Shown here in pieces: positions 14,168 through 64,000 of a stretch of DNA of 64,000 nucleotides. The position numbers and the translations under genes were made by a program. This DNA is from Marivita lacus (GTDB taxonomy: Bacteria; Pseudomonadota; Alphaproteobacteria; Rhodobacterales; Rhodobacteraceae). How positions within the stretch are numbered: the stretch's first letter is position 1; the number at the start of each line of letters is the position of its first letter. The stretch covers positions 62,001 to 126,000 of the forward strand of contig NZ_BMFC01000009.1 in NCBI RefSeq assembly GCF_014637725.1, read 5' to 3'. The notes beneath the pieces are model-generated. The model had not been told where the DNA came from. It saw nothing but the letters and a program-made list of their open reading frames with translations, and did not search any database.

Positions 14168-14260
14168 CGGCGCACTCGCGCACGCATCCTGCGCGTTCCG
14201 AGGTCTTTTCCGCACAAACGCGCAGGATTATCTTGGTCAAAACGGTCGAAAGGACAGACC

Positions 14261-14743
14261 ATGACCAAGGCACATCCCGGCATGACCATCGGACATGTCC
14301 ACCTCAAGGTTTCCGACCTTTACCGCTCAATCGCCTTTTACCGCGATGTGATGGGGCTGGACGTGACCCAGAAATACGGCGACCAGGCCGCGTTCCTGTC
14401 TGCCGGTGGCTACCATCACCATATCGGCCTGAACACATGGTTCAGCAAGGATGGCCCGCCCGCCCCTCAGCGCAGCGCAGGGCTGTTTCACGTCGCCTTT
14501 CTTTATCCCGACCGCGCCGCCTTGGCGCAAGCGTTCAAGTCCGTGCTGGACGCCGCTGTCGAGATCGAAGGTGCAGCGGATCATGGCGTGAGCGAGGCGA
14601 TCTATTTCAGCGACCCGGATGGCAACGGGATCGAGATCTACCGCGACCGTCCCGAGGCAGAATGGCCACGCGATGCGCAGGGTCGGCTGGACATGGTAAA
14701 CGCGCCATTGGACCTCGACGCGCTTTTGCGCGAGTTGACCTGA
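14261..14743 (+). CDS. VOC (glyoxalase/bleomycin-resistance/dioxygenase) family protein
   Basis: 160 residues forming two beta-alpha-beta-beta-beta modules. The metal-ligand positions are visible: IGHVHLKVSDLYRSIAFY gives the first His, HHIGLNTW the middle segment, GLFHVAFLYPDR the second repeat, and DPDGNGIEIYRDRPE the closing Glu. This is the catechol-2,3-dioxygenase-like branch of the VOC superfamily. The substrate cannot be told from the sequence. The gene sits between trpS and ilvE, 83 bp from ilvE. Confidence 0.85.
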   Translation: MTKAHPGMTIGHVHLKVSDLYRSIAFYRDVMGLDVTQKYGDQAAFLSAGGYHHHIGLNTWFSKDGPPAPQRSAGLFHVAFLYPDRAALAQAFKSVLDAAVEIEGAADHGVSEAIYFSDPDGNGIEIYRDRPEAEWPRDAQGRLDMVNAPLDLDALLRELT

Positions 14744-14826
14744 CGCCGCAACGTCCCCTTCGCTCCGACACGCTCTGGACCTTCCCCAAACGCGCCCCTA
14801 ACCTGCGCCGCAAAAAGGAGGTCGCC

Positions 14827-15690
14827 ATGGCAACCGGAACAAACATCCATACATATTTCAACGGCACCTGGCACAAGGGCGATGTGCCGGTGATCAATGC
14901 CGCCGATCATGGCGCATGGCTGGGCAGCGGCGTGTTCGACGGCGCGCGCTACGTGAACGGCGTGGCGCCTGATCTGCTCGCCCATTGCCAGCGCGTGAAC
15001 CGCTCCGCCGAAGCTCTCATGGTGACGCCCACCGTCAGCGCCGAAGACATGGTCCAGATCGTCTGGGACGGTCTGCAGGCCTATCCCAAGGACAGCGCGG
15101 TCTACATCCGCCCGATGTACTGGGCCATCGACGGCGACCTGACAGCCATCGTGCCCCTGGCCGACAAGACCGGGTTTGCGATCTGTCTTGAGGAGATCCC
15201 GATGGCCCCGCAGACCGCCAGCGTGTCGCTGGGCAAGACACAGTTCCGCCGTCCCGTTCTGGAGAGCGCAGTGGTGAATGCCAAGGCTGGGTGCCTCTAT
15301 CCGAACAATGCCCGCATGCTGCGCGAGGTGCGCGCGCGCGGGTTCCAGAATGCGCTTGTGACCGATGCGATGGGCAATGTCGCGGAAAGCGCCACCGCCA
15401 ACGTCTTCATGGTCAAGGATGGCGAGGTGTTCACCCCGATCCCAAACGGCACTTTCCTTGCCGGGATCACCCGATCGCGGCACATGACCAACCTGCGCGC
15501 CGATGGCACACCCGTGCACGAGACCGTGCTCAGCTTTGCCGATTTCGAAGCGGCGGACGAGGTGTTCCTTTCGGGCAACATGAACAAGGTCACACCCGTT
15601 GTGGGCTTCGAGGACGTTTCGTACCAGGTTGGCCCAATCACCCGCCGAGTCCGCGAGATGTATTGGGATTGGGCGCAGTCCAGCCAATGA
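14827..15690 (+). CDS. ilvE: Branched-chain amino acid aminotransferase
   Basis: 287 residues from ATG 14827, which sits 6 nt behind a perfect AGGAGGT. Fold type IV PLP enzyme: N-terminal TYFNGTWHKGDVPVINAADHG, the Schiff-base lysine in VVNAKAGCLYPNN, and the cofactor-binding GNVAESATANVFMV. It catalyses transamination of Val, Leu and Ile with 2-oxoglutarate. The length and the Ser-rich phosphate cup fit IlvE better than D-amino acid transaminase or 4-amino-4-deoxychorismate lyase, though those relatives share the fold. A reading frame open further upstream is not used, because the VOC gene occupies it in another frame. Confidence 0.9.
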   Translation: MATGTNIHTYFNGTWHKGDVPVINAADHGAWLGSGVFDGARYVNGVAPDLLAHCQRVNRSAEALMVTPTVSAEDMVQIVWDGLQAYPKDSAVYIRPMYWAIDGDLTAIVPLADKTGFAICLEEIPMAPQTASVSLGKTQFRRPVLESAVVNAKAGCLYPNNARMLREVRARGFQNALVTDAMGNVAESATANVFMVKDGEVFTPIPNGTFLAGITRSRHMTNLRADGTPVHETVLSFADFEAADEVFLSGNMNKVTPVVGFEDVSYQVGPITRRVREMYWDWAQSSQ

Positions 15691-15768
15691 ACCAGAGCGC
15701 TGACACGGAACCGAGTTCTATTGCGCGGGGTCGTTTCCTGCGTCATGATCCCCGGCGGGAGAACATAA

Positions 15769-16224
15769 ATGCGTAAATTCCTTGTGGTGCTGGATGACAG
15801 CCGCGAATGTCTGAACGCCATGCGCTTTGCGGCCATGCGCGCGGCCAAAACCGGCGGCGGGGTAGAGGTGCTGTCGGTCATCCCGGCCGACGAATTCAAC
15901 CACTGGATCGGCGTCGGAGAGGTCATGCGCGAAGAAGCGCGGGAGCGCATTCACGCGCATTTCGAGGTGTTCGCCAAGTGGATGCGCGACAAGCAGGGCG
16001 TCGACCCCGAACTGGTGATCCGCGAAGGCGAGGCCGTGACCGAGATCATCGCGCAGCTGCAGGACGATCCCGAGATCGGCGTGCTCGTGCTGGGTGCGAA
16101 CACCGGCAAGAAAGGCCCCGGCCCCTTGGTCACGGCGCTGACCAAGAATGCAGGCAGCCTGCCGATCCCGATCACCATCGTACCTGGCGAATTGTCCAAG
16201 GAACGGCTCGAAGCGATCACGTGA
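15769..16224 (+). CDS. Universal stress protein (UspA) family protein
   Basis: 151 residues, single Usp domain. The N terminus KFLVVLDDSRECLNAMRFA is typical, followed by GGGVEVLSVIP and the ATP-binding-type glycine loop in VLVLGANTGKKGPGPLVTAL. The spacing recalls the G-2x-G-9x-G(S/T) motif, though the final residues are altered. Such proteins help cells survive stress, by mechanisms that differ between members. The gene is preceded by a weakly purine-rich GGCGGGAGAAC site. It lies upstream of the iron-regulated NifU gene but a dyad (Irr box) separates them. Confidence 0.88.
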   Translation: MRKFLVVLDDSRECLNAMRFAAMRAAKTGGGVEVLSVIPADEFNHWIGVGEVMREEARERIHAHFEVFAKWMRDKQGVDPELVIREGEAVTEIIAQLQDDPEIGVLVLGANTGKKGPGPLVTALTKNAGSLPIPITIVPGELSKERLEAIT

Positions 16225-16249
16225 CAGGGTCAACACAGGGATCACCTGT

Positions 16250-16266
16250 TTTAGAACGGTTCTAAA
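16250..16266. promoter_or_regulatory. Irr box / iron control element (ICE) upstream of the NifU-like gene
   Basis: The 17-bp sequence TTTAGAACGGTTCTAAA is a perfect dyad of two 8-bp arms around one base. It matches the ICE consensus TTTAGAAnnnTTCTAAA, which the haem-dependent regulator Irr binds in Rhizobiales and Rhodobacterales. It ends 57 bp before the ATG of the NifU-like gene, so it can control that promoter. Confidence 0.85.
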
Positions 16267-16323
16267 CCTTGACGCATCGCGTTCGGCACCGCATATATGA
16301 CGAATGCATCAGGAGGTGCCGCC

Positions 16324-16887
16324 ATGTTTATCCAGACTGAATCAACGCCCAACCCCGCTACCCTCAAGTTTCTGCCCGGCCAGACCGTGCTGGACATGGG
16401 CACGGCTGATTTCCCGACAGCGGATGGTGCGTCCGTTTCGCCATTGGCAACGCGGCTCTTCGCGGTCTCGGGCGTCAAGGGCGTGTTCTTTGGCCATGAC
16501 TTCGTCACCGTAACCAAGGAAGACGACACCGATTGGGACCACCTGAAGCCCGCGCTGCTGGGCGCGATCATGGAGCATTTCCAGTCCGGTGATCCGGTCA
16601 TGGCGGGCGATGCCAAGGCCCCGTCGGGCCATGCCGAACATTCCGGCGAAGATGGCGAGATCGTGGGCCAGATCAAGGAACTGCTCGACAGCCGCGTGCG
16701 TCCTGCGGTGGCTCAGGATGGCGGCGACATCACCTTCCACGGGTTTGATCGCGGCGTGGTCTATCTGCACATGCAGGGCGCCTGCGCAGGCTGCCCGTCC
16801 TCGACCCTGACGCTCAAGATGGGGATCGAGAACCTGCTGCGCCATTACATTCCCGAAGTGACCGAGGTGCGCCCGGTTGCCGTCTGA
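16324..16887 (+). CDS. NifU family Fe-S cluster carrier/scaffold protein
   Basis: 187 residues from ATG 16324, directly behind AGGAGGTG; an ATG at 16297 would add nine residues but leave the strong site inside the gene. The N-terminal NFU domain reads MFIQTESTPNPATLKFLPG. The C-terminal NifU domain has the cluster-binding CAGCPSS (CxxC) at about residue 155. These proteins hold and hand on 4Fe-4S clusters. The Irr box immediately upstream is direct sequence evidence that the gene is iron-responsive. The tsaB start overlaps the 3' end by 11 bp. Confidence 0.93.
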   Translation: MFIQTESTPNPATLKFLPGQTVLDMGTADFPTADGASVSPLATRLFAVSGVKGVFFGHDFVTVTKEDDTDWDHLKPALLGAIMEHFQSGDPVMAGDAKAPSGHAEHSGEDGEIVGQIKELLDSRVRPAVAQDGGDITFHGFDRGVVYLHMQGACAGCPSSTLTLKMGIENLLRHYIPEVTEVRPVAV

Positions 16888-17452
16888 CACGACACTTCTG
16901 GCCTTCGACACATCGGCTGCGCATTGCGCAGCCGCTTTGTTTTGCGGCACCCGTGTTGTGGCCACCCATGTCGACGACATGGCGCGCGGACAGGCTGAAC
17001 ACCTGATGCCGATGCTCGAGGCCTTTCTGGCGGAACACGGCAAGACGTGGTCGGACCTGACGCGACTTGCCGTCGGCGTTGGCCCCGGTAACTTCACGGG
17101 CATTCGCATCTCTGTCTCTGCAGCACGCGGTCTGGCTCTGGGACTGGATGTTCCGGCAATCGGCGTCTCGACACTGGACGCGCTGCAGCATCTGCACCCA
17201 GACGCAACCACCGCCGTGACCGCGCCGCGCGACATGATCTATGCCCAAAGCCCCGGCAGCCTGCCCGCGCTCATCGCGGCCAAAGATGCGCCCCAAGCGG
17301 TCTATGCCGACGATCCGCACGCGCTGATCGGCGCGATGGCCGAGGTGGCGGCAGATGCAGACGCCGACACCGCAGCACGGCCCAAACCGCTCTATATCAA
17401 ACCCGCCGATGCGGCCCCGGCACGGGACACCGCGCCGGTGATGCTGCCGTGA
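16877..17452 (+). CDS. tsaB: tRNA threonylcarbamoyladenosine biosynthesis protein TsaB
   Basis: 191 residues from TTG 16877, overlapping the NifU gene by 11 bp. The ASKHA-type N terminus LLAFDTSAAHCAAAL and the segment LAVGVGPGNFTGIRI are the TsaB/YeaZ hallmarks. TsaB partners TsaD (and TsaE) to make the t6A base at position 37 of ANN-decoding tRNAs. The next gene, rimI, overlaps by 4 bp (GTGA), the classic tsaB-rimI pair. The protein is slightly shorter than E. coli TsaB. The start is supported mainly by homology. Confidence 0.92.
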   Translation: MPSDTTLLAFDTSAAHCAAALFCGTRVVATHVDDMARGQAEHLMPMLEAFLAEHGKTWSDLTRLAVGVGPGNFTGIRISVSAARGLALGLDVPAIGVSTLDALQHLHPDATTAVTAPRDMIYAQSPGSLPALIAAKDAPQAVYADDPHALIGAMAEVAADADADTAARPKPLYIKPADAAPARDTAPVMLP

Positions 17453-17916
17453 CACCCGACGCCTTTGCGACGATCATGGACCGGGCCTATGTCCAGATGC
17501 GGCCATGGTCGGCACAGGACATCGCCGATACGCTCGCCAGTCCGCATGTGCATTTCCTGACCCGCGAGAGCGGTGGACTGATCGCGCAGGTGGTCGCTGG
17601 TGAGTGCGAGATACTGGCCATCGCCACCGACCCGGACGCGCAACGCAAGGGGGTCGCTTCCGCGCTCCTTGCAGAGATTGTCAGCCTTGCCGGGGCCACC
17701 GGATGTTCCCAAATCCTGCTCGAAGTGGCCGGCCGGAACCACGCGGCCCGGTCGTTCTACGACGCGAGGGGATTCGCCCGGATCGGCACACGTCCCGCCT
17801 ATTACACCTTGCGCGACGGCACAAAGGATGATGCCCTGCTGCTTTCGCTTGCCATTGGGCATGTTGAAGCCGATCCTGCGCCAACGTCACATGGCGCAAG
17901 CACAAAAAGCGGTTGA
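17449..17916 (+). CDS. rimI: RimI-like GNAT N-acetyltransferase
   Basis: 155 residues, single GNAT domain. The acetyl-CoA loop reads DPDAQRKGVASALLAE (Q-x-x-G-x-A), preceded by the beta-strand CEILAIATD and followed by ILLEVAGRNHAARSFYDARGF, the RimI-type motif B. RimI acetylates the N-terminal alanine of ribosomal protein S18. Context with tsaB supports the assignment, as the two are commonly adjacent. The GTG start overlaps the tsaB stop by 4 bp, indicating translational coupling. Confidence 0.87.
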   Translation: MTPDAFATIMDRAYVQMRPWSAQDIADTLASPHVHFLTRESGGLIAQVVAGECEILAIATDPDAQRKGVASALLAEIVSLAGATGCSQILLEVAGRNHAARSFYDARGFARIGTRPAYYTLRDGTKDDALLLSLAIGHVEADPAPTSHGASTKSG

Positions 17917-49861: not shown

Positions 49862-51058
<1,197 letters not shown>

Positions 51059-51080: not shown

Positions 51081-51686
51081 TCACAAGATATTGTGCACCG
51101 GCCGAAACGAACGTCTATGGTGTGGGGTTGCACCAAGATTTCGAAGGGCTTCTTTGTGACATTTCGTGGGGTATCCCTGATTTCGCTCCCAGCCGTAGCC
51201 GGGAAACTGTTGCGCCAAATCCCACATGATCGCGTCACGCCGTGTTTTCGCCATGATTGACGCCGCGGCGATGCTCAGCGACAGGCTGTCTCCCTTCACG
51301 ATTGGCGTCGCCGACAGGGTCAGATCACGCGGGACAAGATTGCCATCGATCAGCACGTGATCGGGGGATGCGCTTAGTGCCGCGACCGCCCGGCACATGG
51401 CGAGATGACTGGCGCGCAGGATGTTGATCTCGTCGATTTCTTCGACACTGGCCAGCCCGACGCCCACCTCGGCCTGCGCCAGAATGAGGTCCAGTAGCGC
51501 GTTCCGTTTCTTGGCCGTCAACATCTTGGAATCATTGAGGCCGATGGGCACCCTTGCGGGATCAAGGATCACCGCAGCCGCAACAACCGGCCCGGCCAAA
51601 GGCCCCCTGCCCGCCTCGTCCACACCGGCGATCCGCATGACGCCCCGCATCCGCAAACCGTCTTCAACATCAAAGCTTGGTCCCAT
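51081..51686 (-). CDS. rnhB: Ribonuclease HII
   Basis: 201 residues from ATG 51686. Catalytic acidic residues appear in RIAGVDEAGRGPLAGPVV (Asp-Glu) and in VLIDGNLVPRDL and SIAAASIMAKTRRD. The ending HRRSFRPVHNIL is typical. It removes RNA from DNA-RNA hybrids and single ribonucleotides from DNA. An in-frame extension to 51815 has no family support. The order rnhB-ccrM is common in alphaproteobacteria. Confidence 0.95.
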   Translation of the reverse strand: MGPSFDVEDGLRMRGVMRIAGVDEAGRGPLAGPVVAAAVILDPARVPIGLNDSKMLTAKKRNALLDLILAQAEVGVGLASVEEIDEINILRASHLAMCRAVAALSASPDHVLIDGNLVPRDLTLSATPIVKGDSLSLSIAAASIMAKTRRDAIMWDLAQQFPGYGWERNQGYPTKCHKEALRNLGATPHHRRSFRPVHNIL

Positions 51687-51861
51687 GCCCCCAACTTGAC
51701 CAACCCGCCCGCAAAGGCAAGGCACGGCGGGCGTTTTCGTATCATCCATCGCCCGGTTTGGCGCCGCGTATGTGTTTTTGCGATTTAGGTGGAATACCCA
51801 CTGGACACGCCCCAAACCGTGACCTAGAACGCCGCCACCCGAACGTATATCGTTCTCCCGT

Positions 51862-51936
51862 GCCCGGGTAGCTCAGGGGTAGAGCAGTGGATTGAAAATC
51901 CTCGTGTCGGTGGTTCGATTCCGCCCCCGGGCACCA
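51862..51936 (+). tRNA. tRNA-Phe (anticodon GAA)
   Basis: 75 nt including the encoded CCA. The acceptor stem GCCCGGG pairs with CCCGGGC, and the D arm GCTCAGGGGTAGAGC and T arm GGTGGTTCGATTCCGCC are regular. The anticodon GAA is at 51894-51896 in the loop TTGAAAA. One T-T opposition sits in the anticodon stem. The gene is intact because the element's integration restored its 3' half. Confidence 0.97.
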
Positions 51937-51937
51937 C
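51891..51937 (+). repeat. Left attachment site (47-bp direct repeat within tRNA-Phe)
   Basis: The sequence from the anticodon loop through the CCA plus one C is identical to 62675-62721. Bases on either side differ between the two copies, which defines the repeat ends. Confidence 0.95.
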
Positions 51938-52242: not shown

Positions 52243-53208
52243 ATGATCGACAGCTTACTGGTTGGAAACTCTGCAGAAATCATGAAGGAGCTGCCTGACG
52301 GTAGCGTCGACCTAATTGTAACATCGCCTCCATACTGGGACGCTGTCGAATATGACCAAGGTAGGGCGTCTTGGGCAAGCTATGACGAGTACCTAGAGGA
52401 GATGATGCGCGTTTGGGCACAGTGTGCCCGAGTACTACGGCCTAACGGAAAACTCTGCATCAATGCCCCAATCATGCCAGTTCCAAAGGCGGTGATTGAA
52501 CAACATACGCGGCACTTGAAAAATATTGCATTCGACTTGGAACACATGATTTTGGAACGTACCGACCTAGAGCGGTACAGCCTATTTGTTTGGCAAAAAC
52601 AAACATCAAAGATGATGTTTGGGAGCTACCCATATCCCGGAAACATTATCGAGAATAATACTGTTGAGTTCATCAATGTCTACGTGAAGCCCGGCAAGCC
52701 GCCAAAATTCGAACCTGAGGTTAAAGAAGCCAATAGGTTGACGCGTACTGAATGGATCGATCTCGCACAGCAGGTTTGGTTCATGTATCCTGAAGATGTA
52801 AAGCGCGATGGCGACCATCCGGCCCCTTTCCCTTCGAAGCTCCCTGCACGCTTGGTCAGACTATATACCTACGGTGCAGTGGGCAACTTCGACGGAGAAA
52901 TAGTTTTGGATCCGTTCGTTGGAACAGGAACTACTTGTGCTGTTGCAAAGTCCATGGGTCGACGGTTCATTGGGATCGACATCAACGAAAAGTATATTGC
53001 GCTTGCTGAGCAAAAGATCGCAAACGCCCCACCTTTTGACCCCCTTCTCCTCGTCGGTCGCGCCAAATACCCCGGAAAAGAGGAGCTTTTGGAAATTGCG
53101 CAGTCGGATGCTGGGAGTAAGGGAAAACAAGCCGAAGCCAAGCATAAGCGCAAGACATACGGTCGCACTGTGCCGATAAAAGAAACGGATCAGCTTAATC
53201 TGTTCTAG
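52243..53208 (+). CDS. Beta-class DNA methyltransferase (N4-cytosine or N6-adenine)
   Basis: 321 residues from ATG 52243, behind AAAGGATTGAGA. The catalytic motif TSPPYW (S28-P-P-Y31-W) comes first and the SAM motif LDPFVGTGTT (D223 onward) last, so this is a beta-class (permuted) enzyme. SPPY is most common in N4-cytosine methyltransferases but also occurs in N6-adenine ones. The 180-residue middle should read the target. It is unlike the host CcrM outside these motifs. It heads a three-gene, A+T-rich operon with two nuclease genes (18 bp to the next), so it is probably the protective methylase. Confidence 0.9.
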   Translation: MIDSLLVGNSAEIMKELPDGSVDLIVTSPPYWDAVEYDQGRASWASYDEYLEEMMRVWAQCARVLRPNGKLCINAPIMPVPKAVIEQHTRHLKNIAFDLEHMILERTDLERYSLFVWQKQTSKMMFGSYPYPGNIIENNTVEFINVYVKPGKPPKFEPEVKEANRLTRTEWIDLAQQVWFMYPEDVKRDGDHPAPFPSKLPARLVRLYTYGAVGNFDGEIVLDPFVGTGTTCAVAKSMGRRFIGIDINEKYIALAEQKIANAPPFDPLLLVGRAKYPGKEELLEIAQSDAGSKGKQAEAKHKRKTYGRTVPIKETDQLNLF

Positions 53209-53226
53209 ACAAACTGGAGTTTACGG

Positions 53227-54609
53227 ATGGCGAAGGGGAAGGTTGCCGTCCCTAAAGAGTGGCGGAAGTTCGTCAACGAATACGGTAAAGAGCAGCATTA
53301 CTGGTATGTGCCTAAAGGGCTGGCCGTCAGCGTTGATGCTATCAAGCATCGCCTAAGAGTTCTGAAACAGTTCGAGAACACAAATCCATGGCGCGACGTC
53401 CAGCATGATTTTGTTGAGGCGTTGAACAATCAAGGTATATCATCAGCACGCGCCGAATGGGACGGTGGGGGTGCTCCCCTGGCGCGAATGCTTAAGCAAG
53501 TATTTGCAATGCTTGGACTCGCTTGGGTTCAACCTTCTGATTTGATCGAACTCACCGATGTTGGAAATGAATTTCTGAACTCTTCTGAGCCTGAGAAAGT
53601 GTTGTCCCGGCAAGTCTTCCGATATCAGTTCACCAACCCAAGCGTCAACGCGTCAGTCCACCATGCCGTTAATGTTCATCCGGTGCCGTTCATTGTCGAA
53701 GCCCTTCGTAATACCGATGATAGATTCATTTCACCAATTGAATATGTGCTGTTTCTATCACGGGCAAAAAAATATGGCGATTTCGAGGCAGTAGTTGATC
53801 GCATTCACCGCTTTCGGCAACTCGGCGAAGGCCAGCAGAAGGCGATAATTGACCAATGCGAGCGCTATAAATTGGCAGGTGTGCGCCGGACAAGTATGCT
53901 TAACACCATCCGGCTAAATCGTTCGTATGCATTGAAATTCTTTTCTTTATCCGAGCTATTTGAGATCGGCGATGATGGAAAAATTGTGCTTTCTTCGGGT
54001 CAGCACTTGAATGCCAGGAGGCTCCTGAACTCATACAACGCATCCGGGGAATACATTCAGTTCGATAATGAAGAAGACTGGATCGCATTTTACGGCGGAA
54101 CTGCTGAGATGCCCAATCAGTCTAGTGCCCTTGAGTACTATGTAAAGCGAGGCAAGATCGAACAAGCTAAAGCCACAAAGAAAAAGCAATCGAAGAGCAA
54201 GGCTGATTTTGATGAATTTGAGGACATGATCGTTTCAGAGAAAGCTCTTGAAGATTATTTGGAGCATAACCTGAATGCTGTCGGAGATCGCGTCAAAAGC
54301 AACCTTGAACTTGTTGGAAGACAATACAGCACTCCTGTTGGTCCAATTGATCTTCTAGCAAAAGATCGGAAGACAGGAGACTACGTTGTTTTGGAGTTAA
54401 AAAAAGGCCGGTCAGCGGATAAGGTCTTTGGCCAGTGCTCACGTTACATGGGTTGGATACGACGAAACCTTGCTTCACCTGGACAAGACGTCCATGGCGT
54501 GATTGTAGCGCGATCAATTGACGAAAAACTGAAAGCGGCAAGGGATGCCCATGATACAAAGGTTCATCTTATCGAGTTTGAGCTGAAGCTGGGCGCAAGA
54601 TCGGTGTAG
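53227..54609 (+). CDS. Putative restriction endonuclease subunit 1: AlwI/BstNBI-like domain plus NucS-like nuclease domain
   Basis: 460 residues from ATG 53227, behind CTGGAG. The N-terminal ~220 residues follow the AlwI/BstNBI layout: HYWYVPKG start, RVLKQFENTNPW, an ELTDVGNEFLNS segment, RQVFRYQFTNPS, VHPVPFIVEALR, ISPIEYVLFLSRA and IHRFRQL. A C-terminal domain (about 345-455) has the PD-(D/E)XK pattern of NucS/RecB-like nucleases: GPIDLL (D375), then VVLELKKG (E390-x-K392) and FGQCSRYMGWI. A Lys-rich linker (KATKKKQSKSKAD) joins the halves. The fold assignments rest on my reading of motifs. The next gene is a collinear paralogue 2 bp away. Confidence 0.75.
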   Translation: MAKGKVAVPKEWRKFVNEYGKEQHYWYVPKGLAVSVDAIKHRLRVLKQFENTNPWRDVQHDFVEALNNQGISSARAEWDGGGAPLARMLKQVFAMLGLAWVQPSDLIELTDVGNEFLNSSEPEKVLSRQVFRYQFTNPSVNASVHHAVNVHPVPFIVEALRNTDDRFISPIEYVLFLSRAKKYGDFEAVVDRIHRFRQLGEGQQKAIIDQCERYKLAGVRRTSMLNTIRLNRSYALKFFSLSELFEIGDDGKIVLSSGQHLNARRLLNSYNASGEYIQFDNEEDWIAFYGGTAEMPNQSSALEYYVKRGKIEQAKATKKKQSKSKADFDEFEDMIVSEKALEDYLEHNLNAVGDRVKSNLELVGRQYSTPVGPIDLLAKDRKTGDYVVLELKKGRSADKVFGQCSRYMGWIRRNLASPGQDVHGVIVARSIDEKLKAARDAHDTKVHLIEFELKLGARSV

Positions 54610-54611
54610 TC

Positions 54612-55955
54612 ATGGCGGCAGGCGGATTTTGGGATGCATTTGTCGAAGAGTATTCTAGCAGCGAAGTTTATTGGTTTTTTCCTAAGGGTTCGACGGTAGA
54701 CACGGATCAATTCAGGGAAAAATTCCGGGTTTTCGATCTTTTTGAGGGTATGATTTGGCGCCCTGATCTTCATGGAGAGATTCTGCGAGAACTGCGAAGC
54801 GAGGGACTCTCTTCTGCTGGGGCCGCTCTGCCACGAATGATCAAGCGAGTATTTGAGGTTATGGGGCTTTGCATTGTAGAAAGCGACCAGCCAATTAGAA
54901 TTACGAACATTGGAAAGCAGTTCTTGGATGAAGATAGCGGACCGAGTAGAGTTTTGGATCGTTCTATTTGGCGATATCAATTGCCGACACCAGTCAATGA
55001 CAGCGATGTCACACACGGCATTGCGCTTCATCCCCATCCATTTTTGGTCGAAGTTCTTTTGCGAGGCATGCTTGAGATCAGCGCAGAAGAATACGCATTG
55101 TTCGTTGCAAGATCAATGAAGCCAGAGGATGTGGAGAAGTCTGTTGAACGTATCGCAGAGTGGAGGGGTCTCAAAGAAAATGAGAGAAAAACGATAAGAA
55201 ATCGATTGTCTGGTACAGTTCTTCAAACAATTGAAAGAAATAGATCATATGCGTTTGCATTCCACAACTGTGATCTCGCTATAAGCAAGGGCGGTCAGAC
55301 TCTTTCCGTCAGGCATGCGAACGTAGCGTCGCTCGAACGCAGGCTCGAACTATTCAAGCAACGTGCCCCCCTGTATCATTTTGAAACAGAAAAAGACTAC
55401 GTTGAGTTTATCGCCAGCGAACCAGAAACGAAGACGCCGCTGGAAGAACTTGAGCACTATGTGGATGTTTCTGATGTGGAAAATGCTGTTCGAGCATTCA
55501 AGAAGCTTCCCGATGAGTTTCGGGCTGGACAAAGTGTTGAAGACTTTGAGAAAGAACAGTTTCTTGAGAGGGACCTTGAGCAGTTTTTGGCAAGGAATAT
55601 GGAGTTAATTGAGCCAGGTCTGGTATTCAAATCGAGGCAGTACCAGACTGCGACGGGTCCATTGGACCTGTTGGGGGTGGCAGCGAATGGGGATTTGGTT
55701 GTCATTGAACTGAAAAAGGGCCGCGCTTCTGACAAGGTGTTCGGTCAAATAGCCCGGTATATGGGCAGCATGATGAACGAAGCAGAGATCGGCCAAATCG
55801 TTCGCGGATTTATTGTTGCGAGAGAGGTAGACCAAAGACTTGTGCTTGCGAGTCGGATTTCTGCCGAAAACCGACTAAAGGCGCTTGTGTTTGAACTTGA
55901 AGACAGTGATGGGAAGGAACGTTGGGTTAAGATTGGTTCAGAGAGTTTACTTTGA
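54612..55955 (+). CDS. Putative restriction endonuclease subunit 2, paralogue of subunit 1
   Basis: 447 residues, start 2 bp after the previous stop. It aligns end to end with subunit 1: VYWFFPKG, RVFDLFEGMIW, RMIKRVFEVMGL, IRITNIGKQFLD, LHPHPFLVEVLL, ISAEEYALFVARS, RNRSYAFAF, then the C-terminal GPLDLLG (D352), VVIELKKG (E366-x-K368) and VFGQIARYMGS. Both active sites look intact, so each copy could cut one strand. The middle of the protein has diverged most. Two different subunits beside one methylase suggest a heterodimer reading an asymmetric site. Codon use and A+T content match its operon partners, not the host. Confidence 0.75.
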   Translation: MAAGGFWDAFVEEYSSSEVYWFFPKGSTVDTDQFREKFRVFDLFEGMIWRPDLHGEILRELRSEGLSSAGAALPRMIKRVFEVMGLCIVESDQPIRITNIGKQFLDEDSGPSRVLDRSIWRYQLPTPVNDSDVTHGIALHPHPFLVEVLLRGMLEISAEEYALFVARSMKPEDVEKSVERIAEWRGLKENERKTIRNRLSGTVLQTIERNRSYAFAFHNCDLAISKGGQTLSVRHANVASLERRLELFKQRAPLYHFETEKDYVEFIASEPETKTPLEELEHYVDVSDVENAVRAFKKLPDEFRAGQSVEDFEKEQFLERDLEQFLARNMELIEPGLVFKSRQYQTATGPLDLLGVAANGDLVVIELKKGRASDKVFGQIARYMGSMMNEAEIGQIVRGFIVAREVDQRLVLASRISAENRLKALVFELEDSDGKERWVKIGSESLL

Positions 55956-56760: not shown

Positions 56761-56876
56761 ATAGACTATAAGTCATATTCGACTTAGGCTCACGGAAGGC
56801 CCGAAGTCACTGGCGACATTCAGGAATGCAGGAAGAGGCAGGGGGACGTGCGCCCTCGTGGTTGACTCATAGTCTA
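56761..56876. promoter_or_regulatory. Candidate XRE operators between and inside divergent genes
   Basis: ATAGACTATAAGTC at 56761-56774 is the inverse of GACTCATAGTCTAT at 56863-56876 with one mismatch. A third dyad TAAGTC-ATATTC-GACTTA (56769-56786) overlaps the first. Together they straddle the start of the GIY-YIG gene and the XRE promoter. Confidence 0.6.
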
Positions 56877-57440
56877 TCTGAGGAGGCGAGGGCCGTCCTG
56901 TCGCCCGAGGCCCTTCTGCTGCCCGATCATGTCTTGGATTTCATCGACCGGCACGCGGTCACGCACGGCGTCTATGGCTGGTGGTTCGACAACCGCCTGC
57001 CTCTGGTGCCGAGGGAGGGATGCATCGAGCGTGACGGGAAACACCTGCTCTACATTGGCATTGCCCCCCCGAAAGACCGGTCAGTGCGCCGAGGTGGGCC
57101 AACGCCTGTGAAAAGCCGACTTTGGAGAAACCATCTACGCGGGACCGTGCGCTCCTCGACCTTGAGGCATTCCCTTGCGGCCCTTCTCGAACAGGAGCTT
57201 GAACTGGCATTCTGGCGCGACAAGCGAAACCGAGTTCGCATGGACCGCCACTACGAGGACAGGCTGTCAGAATGGATCGCCAAGCACGCGGCGATCTCGG
57301 TCGTGCAGCATGACGAACCGTGGTCCCTTGAGGAAACGCTGATCAGGAACGGCCCACCCTTGCCGCTCAACCTGAGCATGTCAGCGCATCCGTTCAGATC
57401 GACGCTGAGCGACCTGCGCCGCGCGCTTGGGCGAAGCTGA
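56826..57440 (+). CDS. GIY-YIG nuclease family protein
   Basis: 204 residues. The pieces of a GIY-YIG fold appear in order: HGVYGWWF for GIY, HLLYIGIAPP for YIG, SRLWRNHLRG with the expected Arg, and EPWSLEETLI with a Glu near the metal site. The end LPLNLSMSAHPF followed by LSDLRRALG is typical of an alphaproteobacterial subfamily seen in islands and prophages. Its role is unknown; nuclease activity is inferred from the fold. The start is uncertain because an operator-like site lies at codon 13-17; an internal start is possible. Confidence 0.75.
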   Translation: MQEEAGGRAPSWLTHSLSEEARAVLSPEALLLPDHVLDFIDRHAVTHGVYGWWFDNRLPLVPREGCIERDGKHLLYIGIAPPKDRSVRRGGPTPVKSRLWRNHLRGTVRSSTLRHSLAALLEQELELAFWRDKRNRVRMDRHYEDRLSEWIAKHAAISVVQHDEPWSLEETLIRNGPPLPLNLSMSAHPFRSTLSDLRRALGRS

Positions 57441-58322: not shown

Positions 58323-59348
58323 TCATGTTTCGTCAGCGACGCAATACCGACCGCGCCCCTGTTTCTTGAGTTCACCGTCCTTGTGCATCTTGAACAGCAG
58401 TTGCTTGACGTTGTCCGTCTTCCAGCCCAAGGCGTCGGCGATTTCCTTCGGCCCCATCGGCTCGTCAGCCGCTTCCAGAACTTCGAGGATTGCGCTGCGT
58501 TCTTCCGACCGCCGAACCTCGGCAGCATCACCCAGCACCTTCCACATGCCGCCGACGAACTCGACAGCTTGTTCCATCTCTTCGATTTCCCGGCCTCGAC
58601 CGTAGAGCGTGACCCCCTGCTTGCCACGATGCAAAACGAAGGCGGTATCGACCGCGCCCGTTAGCCCGGTTGTGCCGGAAATCATGTCGAACGGGTCATC
58701 ACCCAACATTTTCCGAAGATGATGGATTACGAGGATCGCCACGCCCATCTGACCGGCCATTTCCTGCAAGGGTGACAGGGCCGCATAATCGGCGTCGTAG
58801 CCCTCGCGCCGCGACTGCGGGCGAACGCCAGCGAAGGTGTCGATGATGACGAGTTTCGGGCGGTGTGCCTCGATCCAGTCGCGCAAGTCGTCAACCAGCC
58901 CGTCGCCCAAACGCCTGACCTGCGTGGCGAAGTGCAGGCCTGGTGGCCAGTGCTCGACATCGCCGTAGAGTTGGCTCATGCGCCTTTTCAAACGGCGATG
59001 GTTGTCCTCCAGCGCGCAATACAGGACCGCGCCTTGGCGACATCTGACGCTTCCCAGCGCCAAGTCCCCGGTGGCGACGGCCATTGCGAAGTCAAGCGCC
59101 ATCCACGACTTTCCGATCTTCGGCTTGCCAGCCAGCAGGGTCACGCCCTCGGCAAGATAGCCGTCCACGGCATATCGAAGGGGTGGGAACTCCTTGGATT
59201 GAAGGGCGTTGGCCGTAATTGTCGTAATCGCTTCACCCGTCGCGGACATTGGTGCGAACTTCGCGGTGCGATTGTTCCGTTTCGGTGGGCGCGGTGTGGT
59301 CTTCGGGTTTTGGCGTCTATTGCCTTTCGGGAAATGCCGCTTGGTCAT
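58323..59348 (-). CDS. RepA-like AAA (AAA_25) ATPase/helicase
   Basis: 341 residues. Walker A GKPKIGKSWMALDFA, then LVIIDTFAGV as Walker B and AILVIHHLRK, the order found in RecA/DnaB-fold hexameric RepA helicases of RSF1010 type. The N terminus is basic and likely disordered (NRRQNPKTTPRPPKRNN). A C-terminal winged-helix-like segment (MGPKEIADALGWKTDNVKQL) may bind DNA. It overlaps the primase-like gene by 4 bp. Together they could replicate the excised element. Confidence 0.85.
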   Translation of the reverse strand: MTKRHFPKGNRRQNPKTTPRPPKRNNRTAKFAPMSATGEAITTITANALQSKEFPPLRYAVDGYLAEGVTLLAGKPKIGKSWMALDFAMAVATGDLALGSVRCRQGAVLYCALEDNHRRLKRRMSQLYGDVEHWPPGLHFATQVRRLGDGLVDDLRDWIEAHRPKLVIIDTFAGVRPQSRREGYDADYAALSPLQEMAGQMGVAILVIHHLRKMLGDDPFDMISGTTGLTGAVDTAFVLHRGKQGVTLYGRGREIEEMEQAVEFVGGMWKVLGDAAEVRRSEERSAILEVLEAADEPMGPKEIADALGWKTDNVKQLLFKMHKDGELKKQGRGRYCVADET

Positions 59349-60301
59349 TGCGCCCCTCCCACTCGCGCGATGATGCGCGATACCTCCGTTTCCAGCGCGT
59401 TCTGGTCTTCGCCGTACTTGTCGCGGAAATATGGGCTGGACCAGATCACGCTGGCGATCTCGTCGAGCGACGCCTCGGCCTCGTGCAGGCCAGCGACCAT
59501 CGCGAAGATCCGGCTGGAACGGTTTGGTGCCATCACGCGGTTGTGCCGGATCAGTGACCGCGTCGAGGCCGTGAGCTTCGAACGGTATTTCCTCAGGACA
59601 GCGAGCGGGTCATGCGCATGGGGGTTCATGTCCAGCGACTCGGGTTCCGCCGCGCCGACGCCGTATCGATCCGTCAGCAGCTTGGGGCGGGCCGTGATCG
59701 GGCTTGGATCGAAATGCACCAGTGGAATGAACGGTCTGTCGTAGTCGGGCTTGTGGTTGAACGACCCCGGCAACCGAAGCAGCTTGTTCGGCGCGCTTCC
59801 GCCCTTGTCGCCGCCATGACGATACGTGAGCGCCTTCGAGAAGGCCGACGCCTGCACGGGCGTGTGTGGCCTATCCCAAAACCACAGTGCCTGCGTGCGT
59901 CCCGGCGAGGTTTCCCAAACCACGGACGGCTTCGGATCGAAGGCGAACGGGTCGGCATCGTCCACGTCGCACCAGCCCAGCCGCGTGATCTGGACGCAAC
60001 TGACCTTCCGGCTCGGGCGCGCATAGACATTAGGGCTGAAGTACTGATCGAAACGATGGCGATCATAGCGACGGAGAAGGCGGTCGATCCTGATTTTTCC
60101 TCGTAAGGGAACGAATTTGTCGATCATCTTCGTGGTGCCCCTTCGGCGGAAACACAGGTTTCCGAAAGCATCGGGTGCGAGAAACGCCGGGTCGTACCAC
60201 AGATCGCAGAGGAAATCGTATTGGCCTTGCAGAACGGCGCGTTCTGTTGCGCCTTCGGCCATCAGGGCAGGGTATTCAGTCTTTTTCTTGTGCTTTTCCA
60301 T
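59345..60301 (-). CDS. RepB-like primase domain protein
   Basis: 318 residues from ATG 60301; a start at 60355 would add 18 residues. A central segment GWCDVDDADPFAFDPKPSVV with two close Asp residues and LRLPGSFNHKPDYDRPFIPL recall the RepB/PrimPol-type primases found next to AAA helicases on mobile elements (quoted parts: WCDVDDAD and LRLPGSFNHKP). The last 60 residues are helical. Priming activity is inferred from these motifs and from the coupled ATPase gene (4-bp overlap). Confidence 0.72.
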   Translation of the reverse strand: MEKHKKKTEYPALMAEGATERAVLQGQYDFLCDLWYDPAFLAPDAFGNLCFRRRGTTKMIDKFVPLRGKIRIDRLLRRYDRHRFDQYFSPNVYARPSRKVSCVQITRLGWCDVDDADPFAFDPKPSVVWETSPGRTQALWFWDRPHTPVQASAFSKALTYRHGGDKGGSAPNKLLRLPGSFNHKPDYDRPFIPLVHFDPSPITARPKLLTDRYGVGAAEPESLDMNPHAHDPLAVLRKYRSKLTASTRSLIRHNRVMAPNRSSRIFAMVAGLHEAEASLDEIASVIWSSPYFRDKYGEDQNALETEVSRIIARVGGAQ

Positions 60302-60385
60302 TGTCTTGTCTTTCGAGAAGGCACACCATGAGGCGCGCGCCAAAGCGCGTTGCACGTCAGTGGTGGGTTTTTGGGGGATCGCCGG

Positions 60386-60610
60386 TCAGTATTCGGCGTA
60401 GTATGTGCGGGCGCGCTCGGCGGCGCGTTCAGCGAGCCAGTCCTCGATCTCGGACAGGAACCACGCGACGCTGGTCCCGGCCATCCTGATACGCCGAGGG
60501 AAGCGCCCACGGGCCTCCCAGCGCAGCAGGGTCGTGTTGCTCACGTTGATGCCAAGTCGCTTGAGGTCAGCGCGCGTGGCCAAGGTCTTACGACCGTCGG
60601 TTATATTCAT
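60386..60610 (-). CDS. AlpA-like helix-turn-helix regulator
   Basis: 74 residues from ATG 60610, behind GGAGGA. The winged-helix AlpA/excisionase fold is plain: ATRADLKRLGINVSNTTLLR, WEARGRFPRRIRMAGTSVAW, then a helical end. In phage satellites AlpA-type proteins turn on excision and replication genes. The position between integrase and replication genes fits that role. Confidence 0.85.
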   Translation of the reverse strand: MNITDGRKTLATRADLKRLGINVSNTTLLRWEARGRFPRRIRMAGTSVAWFLSEIEDWLAERAAERARTYYAEY

Positions 60611-60705
60611 GATGGTCCTCCATCGGTTAGATGAAGGGGTCGACCCCAAAGGGTGCATGCAGTCGAAGATTAGCAGGGGCGATGCGCCGATGCGCGGGAC
60701 ACAAA

Positions 60706-61251
60706 TCAGGTGTTTTCGTCCCAGATCGCATCAGACTGAACGCCGAGGTTTTCGAGCAATTCGAGAACGGCAATCATCGTTCGGGTATGGGGCGCGTCGG
60801 GATCGAACAGAGACTCGATCTCGGCCATTTCCCCTGTGGTCAACTGGGCACCGGCTTTTCTGCGCAGGCGATGCTCAACAGCGTCATCGCTCACGTTGTC
60901 GCTCTTTCCGGCCAGTTCTGCGAAACGCCGCGCGGCCTCGCGAACCTTCATGGGGTCACGCGCGATTTCAGTTTCCCATTCGGGCGTTTGAAGCTTTTCG
61001 TCCTTCTTCGCGATGGCGCGTCGAAGACCATCAAGTTCGCGCTTGCGCACCTCGTCAATGACCTTGAATAGCGCCAGATCATCGAATGCAGCCGTTCGAC
61101 CACGCCCACGCTTTTCGCCGAATAGGGCCTCGCGCACGATTGCCAGACGTTCGGCCTCGCTTTTCCTATCGGGATGTTCGTAGGCGCGAATGATACTGAG
61201 AAGCAGTAGGTCAACATGACGCTTGCGCAATTTCGGTTTCGGTGGCGTCAT
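60706..61251 (-). CDS. Hypothetical protein of the island integrase operon
   Basis: 181 residues, charged, no membrane segment or signal peptide. The N terminus (KLRKRHVDLLLLSIIRAYEH) is helical and basic; the rest has many Glu/Arg heptad-like stretches (VIDEVRKRELDGLRRAIAKK). No domain is recognised. Its start overlaps the integrase end by 41 bp, so it is co-transcribed with the integrase gene. Proteins with similar size and place occur in related tRNA-borne islands but their job is unknown. Confidence 0.65.
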   Translation of the reverse strand: MTPPKPKLRKRHVDLLLLSIIRAYEHPDRKSEAERLAIVREALFGEKRGRGRTAAFDDLALFKVIDEVRKRELDGLRRAIAKKDEKLQTPEWETEIARDPMKVREAARRFAELAGKSDNVSDDAVEHRLRRKAGAQLTTGEMAEIESLFDPDAPHTRTMIAVLELLENLGVQSDAIWDENT

Positions 61252-62410
61252 TGCTTGACCTGACCAGTTTCATCACGTGTTGCGACCATGCGCCGAGGGC
61301 TTCGCGCTTCTCGTCCGCGTATGAATAGACATTGTAGATAGCGGCCACGCCCGAGACCACACCCGTTTTGTGGTTCAACAGCGCCTCGGTGACGGGCTGA
61401 GGGACGCCCAGCATCGCCATGTTGGTGGACATCGTGCGGCGCAGGTCGTGGATGATCCACGGGTCCGTGCCTTCGGGCAGCGCCTTGTCGAGCCGGTCTT
61501 TCAGTCGACCGAACCCCGACACGGGCGATTTGCCGGTGGTCGTGAACACGTAGTCAGACCCGAGGAACCTCGGAACCCTGCGCAGCACGTCCAGCATCGC
61601 GTCGGTGATCGGCACGGTGTGCTGCCTGCCGTTCTTGGCGCGCTGCGAAGGCAGGGTCCACAGGCGTTTTTCGAGGTCGAGTTCCGACCAGCGCATCTCG
61701 GCGACCTCGGCGCGTCTCTGGCCGCTGAGCATCAGCAGCTTCATGCAATCCCCGAAAGGATAGCCTTCGGCGTCACAGGCCGTCCACAGCGCGCCCAGCT
61801 CGTCGTCTGTCAACACGCGCTCGCGCGACCGTTCCTTGGACAAAGGTTTCATCCCGGCGATAGGGGAGGCGTCGATCATGCCGCGCTCGACACACCAGCC
61901 CATGAGGTGCTTGAGGTGGGCCAGCGCGCGGTTCGCGCTGACCGGCGCGGATTTGTGGATCACGTCGCAGGCTTTCACGACATCGGCGCGCTTGATCTCG
62001 TCGATCCGTTTGCCATGCAGGGTGGTGAACTTCGCCAGCAGGGCTTCCTTGCGCTTCCAGTCGCGATTGTGAACCTTGGCGTGCTTCTCGATGTAATCGG
62101 GGATCACGTCACCCAGCGTTGGCTTGGTCTCGACTTCGACGCCCGTCCGATCCTCGAACCGGCCCGTCTCGATTTCGTAGAGAACCTGTCGCACCCGTTC
62201 GCGCGCCTCGGCCAGCGACACGACGCCGAACCTCCCGATGGTCAGGCGGCGCATCTTGCCGTTGATGCGCTTGTGCAGGCAGAATGTCTTGGTGCCGGAC
62301 GCGCTGATGCGCAGGACCAGACCCGGCATCAACTCGTCGCGGAAATCGAGACGTTTTGACGGGTTGGGCCTCTGGCCTTCGATGAACTTGGTGGTGAGCT
62401 TGCGTTTCAT
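61211..62410 (-). CDS. Tyrosine integrase with N-terminal DUF4102 domain
   Basis: 399 residues from ATG 62410. The N-terminal arm-binding DUF4102 domain includes RDELMPGLVLRISASGTKTF and GRFGVVSLAEARERV. The catalytic residues are in SGQRRAEVAEMRW (Arg), HDLRRTMSTNMA (His-x-x-Arg), LLNHKTG (His) and IYNVYSYADEKREAL (nucleophile Tyr). P4-type integrases of this kind use tRNA 3' ends. The candidate -10 box ends only 7 nt before this ATG, so the mRNA may be leaderless. An upstream frame to 62602 has no domain support. Confidence 0.95.
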   Translation of the reverse strand: MKRKLTTKFIEGQRPNPSKRLDFRDELMPGLVLRISASGTKTFCLHKRINGKMRRLTIGRFGVVSLAEARERVRQVLYEIETGRFEDRTGVEVETKPTLGDVIPDYIEKHAKVHNRDWKRKEALLAKFTTLHGKRIDEIKRADVVKACDVIHKSAPVSANRALAHLKHLMGWCVERGMIDASPIAGMKPLSKERSRERVLTDDELGALWTACDAEGYPFGDCMKLLMLSGQRRAEVAEMRWSELDLEKRLWTLPSQRAKNGRQHTVPITDAMLDVLRRVPRFLGSDYVFTTTGKSPVSGFGRLKDRLDKALPEGTDPWIIHDLRRTMSTNMAMLGVPQPVTEALLNHKTGVVSGVAAIYNVYSYADEKREALGAWSQHVMKLVRSSNDATETEIAQASC

Positions 62411-62417
62411 AAGCCCA

Positions 62418-62458
62418 TGATAAGATGGGCGGATGAACCGCGTCAGGGACAACCCTAG
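62418..62458 (-). promoter_or_regulatory. Integrase promoter module (twin of 56479-56519)
   Basis: On the minus strand CTAGGGTTGTCCCTGAC, 18 bp, then TTATCA. The -10 box is 7 bp from the integrase ATG. The AGGG-N4-CCCT dyad at the -35 edge is identical in place to that of the twin promoter. Confidence 0.55.
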
Positions 62459-62767
62459 AGGGTTTGCAGGGTTTTGGATCGGTCTGCGCTGGACCGTGAT
62501 ACCCGTGTGGTCTTCGGCGTCCTCGGGTATCACTGGGGTAGCAGAAGCGGTGTGCTTGAACGCTCCGGCGTGAGACGGGTCGAAACGATCTGCCAAGCGC
62601 AAAGGTTAAGGTTTTCAATCGACTACGTTACGGGTTGAGCGATCCTGAGACAGCGCGCGCGGATCAACAGGCCAATTGAAAATCCTCGTGTCGGTGGTTC
62701 GATTCCGCCCCCGGGCACCACTTGAAAAGCTGAAATGGTTGGGTTTTGTGCTCATGTCTGGTCCTCG
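62459..62767. other. Right end of the element: arm-type repeats, attR and the flank beyond
   Basis: No gene is supported here. GTGATACCCG (62496-62505) faces CGGGTATCAC (62524-62533), and GGGTAGCA follows at 62536-62543, matching the left-end pair. The attR copy is at 62675-62721. The 46 bp after it lead to the stop of the second integrase. Confidence 0.7.
62675..62721 (+). repeat. Right attachment site (second copy of the 47-bp tRNA-Phe repeat)
   Basis: Identical to 51891-51937. It lacks the 5' half of the tRNA, so it is not a second tRNA gene but the att copy left by integration. Confidence 0.95.
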
Positions 62768-63865
62768 TCAGGGTCGGGTTTGACGCTTTTCGGCGGAAGG
62801 TTTGACAATCTTCGCACGTCTTGCGTTCTCTTTTTCCAGCGTCGCCATCGTCTCGCGGTTCTTGTCGGCAAGGTTCGCGGACCGTGAATAGTGCCGCGCC
62901 ATGGACGGTGTTTTCTGCCCCAAGAGGTCCGCGATGCGCCGCTCATCCAGCCCCGCCTCGCGCAGCGTCGTCGCAACAGTATGGCGCAGGCCCTTGAGCG
63001 TGAGGCCGGGCGCGATCAGCCCTTCCTCTTCCAACCCGGTCTTGAAACGGTGCCAGACGGTCGAAAAGCCGTTGTAGGTCCAAGGCCCGCCCTGCGAACT
63101 GGCCAGCACCGTGGCTGCCTCATGCCCGGGGATGCTGTCGAGGGCCGCCTGCAAGGTCGGGCTGACAGGAATCGCCACCTCTTCGCCGGTCTTGCCGCGC
63201 ACGCCCCAGATCGTGTCACCGTCAATCTGGTCCTTGCGCAGCTTCAACGCGTCCGACGGGTCGAGCCCGGTATTCATCATCAGCGCCAGCGCCACCCGCA
63301 CATGCGGCTTGGCGCGGGACAGGACGATGTCGCGCTCCTCGATGGTCCAGGGCCGGTTGGCATAAGCCCGGTCGCGCGGGCGGCGCTTGGGGATCACGTC
63401 CTTGGCGTAATTCGCCGCGATCAGACCTTGGGGGATGGCATGGCGGAACACCTCGCTCAGCAGGGTGCGCACCATGTTGGCCCGCCGCCAGCCGATCTTT
63501 TTCGCGGCCTTGTCGTGGATGCCTGCGATCAGCGGCGTGTCGATCACATGCACTGGCGTGTCGCGGATTGGGGCCAGGAAATCCGCGCATTAGCGGTAAT
63601 CGCGGCGCGTGGCCTCGGCGAGGTTGGCGAAATGCCCGGTCTCGAAATAGCCCTTGATCAGCCCGCCCAAAGTACCCGCACGAGGGCCCTTTTCCTTCTG
63701 CGCCACGGCGATGGCCCGGATCGTCTCGCATTGCGCCAGAAATTCGGCCGACCCCAGCGGTGCCTCGGTCAGATCGATCTTGTGGCCCGTCGCGCGGTGG
63801 TAGCAGCGCATCCGGCCGTGGCGATCCTTGAATATCTTGAATCCCTTGACGCGCACATGGGTCAT
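62768..63865 (-). pseudogene. Second tyrosine integrase, interrupted by an in-frame TAA
   Basis: From ATG 63865 the frame runs through an N-terminal arm-binding region (VKGFKIFKDRHGRMRCYHRA) and GTLGGLIKGYFETGHFANLA, then meets TAA at 63590-63592 right after ATRRDYR. The same frame continues with CADFLAPIRDTPVHVID and a full catalytic domain: NTGLDPSDALKL in place of the usual Arg box, LKGLRHTVATTL (His-x-x-Arg region), LLGQKTPSMARHYSR (Tyr). One base change explains the break. The Arg I position reads Asp, another sign of decay or divergence. It ends 46 bp from attR. Confidence 0.82.
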
Positions 63866-64000
63866 CAGAGCCGGTCCAGGATGTCGTCGCGCGTCATCTC
63901 GACATGGTCGGCCTTCATCGTGTCGATCCAGCGATCGATGTCGCGCCGGTCCCACAGCAGCGTGCCGCGCGCCAGCTCGACAGGCCGCACCGGGCAGCTT
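63865..64000 (-). CDS. AlpA/excisionase-like helix-turn-helix protein, partial (start outside window)
   Basis: 44 residues before the TGA at 63865-63867, open to the window edge. The segment RPVELARGTLLWDRRDIDRW is typical of the end of short helix-turn-helix proteins encoded next to integrases. The stop overlaps the integrase start (TGATG), so the two were one operon. Confidence 0.65.
   Translation of the reverse strand, partial: SCPVRPVELARGTLLWDRRDIDRWIDTMKADHVEMTRDDILDRL

Follow-up and report, generated by a model that had tools for sequence, protein, structure and literature searches.

A 64,000-nucleotide stretch of Marivita lacus DNA (contig NZ_BMFC01000009.1, positions 62,001 to 126,000; hereafter the window) carries a three-gene module whose sequence points to a type II restriction-modification system built around an unusual fusion, in which an AlwI/BspD6I-type recognition region, the reader, is joined to a NucS-type nuclease domain, the cutter, with a second such nuclease added in the window instance. 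The module comprises a beta-class amino-methyltransferase gene, M (52243..53208, 321 aa), a gene for an AlwI/BspD6I-type plus NucS-type PD-(D/E)XK nuclease, R1 (53227..54609, 460 aa), and a diverged R1 paralogue with the same domain order, R2 (54612..55955, 447 aa), all on the plus strand and separated by 18 bp (M to R1) and 2 bp (R1 to R2). This layout of a methyltransferase followed by two collinear paralogues had been proposed in an earlier sequence-only reading, and both the coordinates and the alignment agree with it, R1 and R2 being 36-39% identical from end to end depending on the alignment used. For M the start at ATG 52243 was chosen, as in that reading and as aligned relatives indicate; the mechanically called frame opens at TTG 52156. 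We consider it highly probable that M and the nucleases form a restriction-modification system, and probable that the best overall explanation of the locus is a type II system of this kind carried on an island at tRNA-Phe.

Domain composition of R1 and R2

Profile searches with the AlwI (PF09491) and NucS families placed R1 and R2 above both curated Pfam cut-offs, with 44.1 bits to NucS_C (cut-off 24) and 27.9 bits to RE_AlwI (cut-off 23.1) for R1, and 56.9 and 33.5 bits, both above the R1 scores, for R2. The RE_AlwI match spans profile positions 3-170 in R1 and 3-139 in R2 out of 441, which places the AlwI/BstNBI relation on the N-terminal recognition side, as claimed earlier, and the full-length AlwI architecture with its own cleavage region is absent from both proteins, the C-terminus being of NucS type instead. 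Two other RE_AlwI proteins in a 249-genome sample match near full length (3-439 and 11-436 of 441), so the truncated match of R1 and R2 reflects a real difference in architecture. Among sequences of solved structures, a family profile built from R1, R2 and the R proteins of Sulfitobacter, Sphingomonas sp. SRS2 and Erythrobacter (profile A5) matches residues 10-192 of Nt.BspD6I at E 8e-10 and the NucS C-terminal nuclease domain at E 1.6e-5 (2vld) and 0.0013 (5gke), the remaining listed matches lying at E 0.14 or worse; a further profile, A6, returns the same Nt.BspD6I and NucS rows at E up to 0.01, and R2 alone finds NucS at about 1e-6. Pfam and the family profile together thus support the earlier description of a beta-class methyltransferase with two AlwI/BspD6I-like/NucS-like fusion nucleases. 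PADLOC groups the C-terminal domains with candidate defence families, most strongly PDC-S02 (2.9e-27 and 2.1e-23); a model for type II nicking endonucleases also matches R2, but weakly (4.5e-5).

Both proteins carry the NucS_C domain with its active-site residues, E338, D375, E390 and K392 in R1 and E319, D352, E366 and K368 in R2, and the motif GQCSRYMG (R1) or GQIARYMG (R2). The triads D375/E390/K392 and D352/E366/K368 and the GQ-x-x-RYMG motifs named in the sequence-only reading are exact in the sequence; the fourth acid was absent from its list, and in R1 E338 was assigned to that column through the R-protein alignments. The four R2 residues align with E127/D160/E174/K176 of NucS (pairwise E 1e-6) and R1 D375/E390/K392 with D160/E174/K176 (a weak pairwise match), residue numbers in both cases being counted from printed positions, and across five aligned R proteins the E-D-E-K columns and the Q-x3-Y are invariant. 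For DUF91 and YhcG proteins an E-D-E-x-K motif has been reported (PMC1189080). The catalytic E, D, E and K are thus common to R1, R2 and NucS/EndoMS (PF01939), as aligned with 2vld, whereas the N-terminus differs, being AlwI/BspD6I-type in R1 and R2, and the best scores of 46.9 and 65.9 bits lie below the NCBI NucS equivalog cut-off of 216. The joining of the NucS C-terminal region to other domains had already been noted in general terms (PMC5290159).

Compared with Nt.BspD6I/BstNBI, AlwI, MlyI and PleI (RE_AlwI, PF09491), R1 and R2 have a like N-terminal recognition region, whereas the AlwI-type C-terminal part of these enzymes is unmatched; MlyI and PleI we take to be members of this group. 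Nt.BspD6I divides its functions in a comparable order, its N-terminal domain binding the site and its C-terminal domain cutting the top strand (PMC6261011). No description of this fusion, or of a characterised pair, was found in the open-access searches made, subscription papers and REBASE lying outside their coverage, so that this negative carries little weight. Two BspD6I papers that seemed close by their terms mention neither NucS nor DUF91, and three apparent literature matches to DUF91 proved to concern other families, DUF917, DUF911 and DUF913. Should the fusion prove active, it would demonstrate that nature has exchanged domains between a restriction enzyme and a mismatch-repair nuclease, coupling an AlwI/BspD6I-type reader to a cutter of NucS/EndoMS type, and it might yield new site-specific or nicking enzymes.

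Several points weigh against the overall reading of the locus. R1 alone finds NucS only weakly among the solved sequences (E 0.016), and Nt.BspD6I was found by neither R1 nor R2 singly at E up to 1, while the Sphingobium pTK7 homologue remains under the RE_AlwI cut-off (19.7 versus 23.1 bits). Within residues ~200-330 no match passes a curated cut-off beyond the margins of the N- and C-terminal matches, the folds of R1 and R2 are predicted from profiles, and the putative N4-cytosine (m4C) rather than N6-adenine (m6A) call for M hangs on a single motif. As R2 is seen at a single locus, conservation offers no evidence of its usefulness. To our knowledge, no activity, site or cleavage pattern has been described for any member of the R family.

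The methyltransferase and its linkage to the nuclease

M belongs to the N6_N4_Mtase family (PF01555, 2.4e-40), and its best match among solved sequences is 2zie (7.8e-38). Its motif IV, TSPPYW (SPPY at residue 28), precedes motif I, DPFVGTGTT (residue 223), which is the order of the beta group (PMC2890505), and SPPY is common to most bacterial m4C methyltransferases (PMC8885841). By its predicted protein M is thus a beta-class methyltransferase in motif order, and its product is probably N4-methylcytosine. The locus holds this single methyltransferase gene (321 aa).

A search of 72,556 plasmid records with R1 (tblastn) gave matches in 20, with at least 80% of the query covered only in pTK7 (Sphingobium sp. 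TKS) and the same-sized pDC09 (Rhizorhabdus wittichii), in both of which M is followed directly by one R. A scan of genome contigs with two short peptide patterns, a design of limited sensitivity by which distant tandem pairs may be missed, matched 93 stretches, four of which were confirmed as loci in Sulfitobacter sabulilitoris, Sphingomonas sp. SRS2, an uncultured Paracoccus and Erythrobacter oryzae. Counting pTK7 and pDC09 once, these five alphaproteobacterial loci and the window make six distinct loci, the five relatives having been recruited by R and not by M. M lies directly 5' of R in all six, with gaps of -1 to 24 bp, so that separate methyltransferase and endonuclease genes in constant linkage, the hallmark by which we call the system type II, recur in every case. 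The M proteins of the relatives are 69-72% identical to that of the window, and R1 is 46-58% identical to the single R proteins (58% to that of Sulfitobacter, 46-47% to those of SRS2 and Erythrobacter).

No second R was found by tblastn in the sequence around the five relative loci, which in pTK7 is complete and in the SRS2 contig extends only ~490 bases 3' of R. The single-R relatives (pTK7/pDC09, SRS2, Paracoccus, Erythrobacter and Sulfitobacter) therefore have the gene order of M-R1 and lack a detected R2, and the tandem occurs in one of the six distinct loci. Because in these relatives a like M is paired with one R only, the core appears to be a two-gene type II M+R system of which R2 is not a constant part. 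The proposal that the locus represents a new restriction type is accordingly not supported, five other loci having the same kind of methyltransferase with a single fusion nuclease. In these relatives the simplest reading is that R would read the site and cut as a homodimer. Having loci with one nuclease and a locus with two, each beside a methylase of this kind, provides a natural experiment on the origin of heterodimeric restriction enzymes.

It is conceivable that M and the nucleases are not cognate, M being an orphan methylase or one of phage type, while the nucleases would serve another defence or repair pathway, such as NucS-like cleavage of mismatched or branched DNA. The NucS-like C-terminal domain lends itself to such a reading, as does an orphan M on a viral contig (IMG/VR; 6001-6945), 70% identical to that of the window and with no R in the 13 kb around it. 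The linkage of M to R in six of six loci speaks against it, together with an N-terminus that matches AlwI/BspD6I and NucS equivalog cut-offs that are not reached, and we regard it as very improbable. The viral M is likely a phage self-methylation gene directed against this system, an orphan methyltransferase in such a setting fitting phage self-protection. Apart from this orphan, the M query (A3) against viral contigs returned one 39-residue M-like match, R2 alone and query A2 gave no R relative there, and phage records held no match to R1. Helicobacter suis plasmids encode an M that is 42% identical, and in the one such plasmid examined R1, R2 and the pTK7 R had no match.

Signs of mobility recur among the four relatives whose surroundings were typed: pTK7 and pDC09 are classed as mobilisable, the small contig that bears the SRS2 locus also encodes MobA/MobL, a Mob_Pre gene comes next after the Erythrobacter R, and a replication-initiator gene is present on the Paracoccus contig. 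The ends of the latter contig overlap by 77 bases and R spans them; it is probably a closed circular molecule. Matches were few in whole-genome samples, overlapping sets that were searched with stringent E thresholds between 1e-25 and 1e-30: 2 of 394 at family level (the window's own genome and G469), 3 of 390 at order level (the same two and a NucS-domain-only match in G591), and the own genome alone at class (1 of 385) and phylum level (1 of 398). Sulfitobacter gave a single match in the whole-genome searches. When the plasmid records were queried using just the N-terminal parts (E up to 1), two weak Rhodococcus matches to R2 (E 0.5) were the only additions to pTK7/pDC09. A Hydrogenophaga plasmid (3087-7372) encodes a 268-aa NucS-domain protein followed by a gene of ~3.5 kb annotated as a DNA methyltransferase, possibly another pair of methylase and NucS-type nuclease of a different make.

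Origin and role of the second nuclease

R2 is slightly closer to R1 than to the other R proteins in both of its parts, with 34% versus 29-32% identity in the N-terminal part and 38% versus 33-36% in the C-terminal part. An origin of R2 by recent tandem duplication of R1 was considered and rejected, since R1 shares 58% identity with the Sulfitobacter R but 36-39% with R2. In an unrooted whole-protein tree R2, R1 and the Sulfitobacter protein share one side of a supported branch (97/100), their order being open; the C-terminal tree sets R2 apart from the six others, moderately supported (80/89) and beside a root that is itself weak; and the N-terminal tree leaves its position open. All three trees draw R2 on a very long branch, whose placement the program cautions not to rely on. 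R2 may have been imported, may be a paralogue of old standing, or may have separated near R1 as a partner that evolves fast. It is probably functional, judging from its predicted protein, because the active site and both regions are intact. That R2 might be a decaying or regulatory copy with no nuclease role of its own would account for its strong divergence and its presence in one of six distinct loci, and yet a 447-aa open frame that has kept the four active-site residues and the Q-x3-Y, with RE_AlwI and NucS_C scores exceeding those of R1, makes such decay improbable.

We propose that M would methylate, probably at N4 of cytosine, a palindromic or quasi-palindromic site, that R1 would read unmethylated copies of this site, and that cleavage would follow when two NucS-type domains come together. 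In the window, R2 would have joined as the second subunit, probably co-expressed with R1 across the 2-bp gap. Of the roles open to R2, that of a specialised partner subunit to R1 in a heterodimer is the most likely, and that of an independent second nuclease under the same methylation is less likely. Taken as a statement in its own right, some R1-R2 heterodimer, obligate or not, is a tentative expectation that falls somewhat short of an even chance.

In the stricter form of this idea the heterodimer is obligate: R1 would cut one strand of an asymmetric site and R2 the other, as the sequence-only reading proposed, in the manner of type IIT enzymes, with one methyltransferase seeing a quasi-palindrome. 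Both proteins have recognition and catalytic regions and their genes are adjacent at a 2-bp gap, and a precedent exists in the type IIT enzyme BbvCI, whose subunits are of similar size and both take part in recognition (PMC4081073). BbvCI and Bpu10I have two different nuclease subunits, as the two adjacent nuclease genes here would, the likeness being one of description and not of sequence; in general, although not absolutely, type IIT systems have two methyltransferases, one per strand, whereas the window locus has one (PMC4081073). Single-methyltransferase type IIS systems are nonetheless represented by BbvI and MlyI, in which the methyltransferase sees a quasi-palindrome (PMC4081073). Against an obligate pair stand this usual presence of two methyltransferases and the five relatives in which the same kind of M serves a single R, and we regard it as doubtful. 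The heterodimer of BspD6I had been offered as an analogy in the sequence-only reading, and here the fit is loose: the BspD6I partner subunit is small and has no recognition region, whereas R2 is full length with both a recognition region and an active site.

R2 could also be an independent endonuclease with its own or a relaxed site covered by the same methylation, R1 alone being the cognate enzyme, as R is in the relatives. The very long R2 branch would suit such independence, as would the higher identity of R1 with the R proteins of the one-R loci (46-58%) compared with R2 (36-39%); the adjacency of the genes and their identical order of regions would not, and a site left unmethylated would endanger the host, a constraint on how far the R2 site could diverge. 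We regard independence as rather unlikely. Returning to the pairing of R1 with R2, an obligate heterodimer in which each subunit has its own reader and NucS-type cutter, evolved from a single-gene homodimeric enzyme, is a speculative scenario that we put forward at well under even confidence. If it is true, an enzyme would be seen in transition from symmetry to an asymmetric form of two subunits while served by a single methylase, and the one-R relatives on small plasmids would be surviving kin of the ancestral homodimeric enzyme.

A mobile island as the genetic setting

The module lies within a 10.8-kb island bounded by perfect 47-bp direct repeats, att-like in character, on the left at 51891..51937 (+), where the repeat is formed by the 3' part of a tRNA-Phe(GAA) gene (51862..51936, +; ARAGORN) that serves as the integration site, and on the right at 62675..62721 (+), the island end. 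A 27-mer inside the repeat has a chance expectation of 0.00 in 100 shuffles. M-R1-R2 forms a cargo of lower GC content (0.47-0.49, versus 0.616 upstream of the island). Also encoded on the island are a GIY-YIG domain protein of its backbone (56826..57440, +; PF20815 2.8e-21), an AAA_25 ATPase/helicase-like replication protein (58323..59348, -; PF13481 1.1e-33, with PHROG primase/helicase matches), a primase-like protein (59345..60355, -; RepB_primase PF16793 1.2e-9, PHROG DNA primase 7.6e-19), an excisionase-like regulator (60386..60658, -; PHROG 2790 9.5e-10) and the island integrase (61211..62602, -; PHROG 1 integrase 2.2e-65).

The integrase was found in 2 of 17 genomes searched, its own and a genome of the same genus (G433), where it is 87% identical as protein and 88% as DNA. 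G433 also has a block of DNA 81% identical around the GIY-YIG gene, which is thus common to both islands, lying between copies of the same repeat. In this sister island two other large genes take the place of M-R1-R2 (13467-17870; 708 aa and 755 aa, on opposite strands), and M-R1-R2 is therefore probably exchangeable cargo. The G433 cargo genes matched no PADLOC model, one of them having a sub-threshold HEAT_2 match, and form a candidate defence module of unknown type. No complete tRNA gene was found in 19.5 kb of G433, so its integration at tRNA-Phe is read from the repeats alone.

A third copy of a 25-base core of the repeat lies ~20 kb beyond the right repeat (contig position 145108). Just past the right repeat, at 62768-63955, an integrase gene on the minus strand lies in separate open pieces, the larger of which matches PHROG 1. 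This broken integrase and the third repeat core suggest a second island in tandem. Just outside the island on its left side, at 49862-50965, is a gene that we take, from its translation alone, to encode a CcrM-like adenine methyltransferase, and near it, at 51081-51815, a gene presumably for a ribonuclease HII-like protein, likewise judged by its translation.

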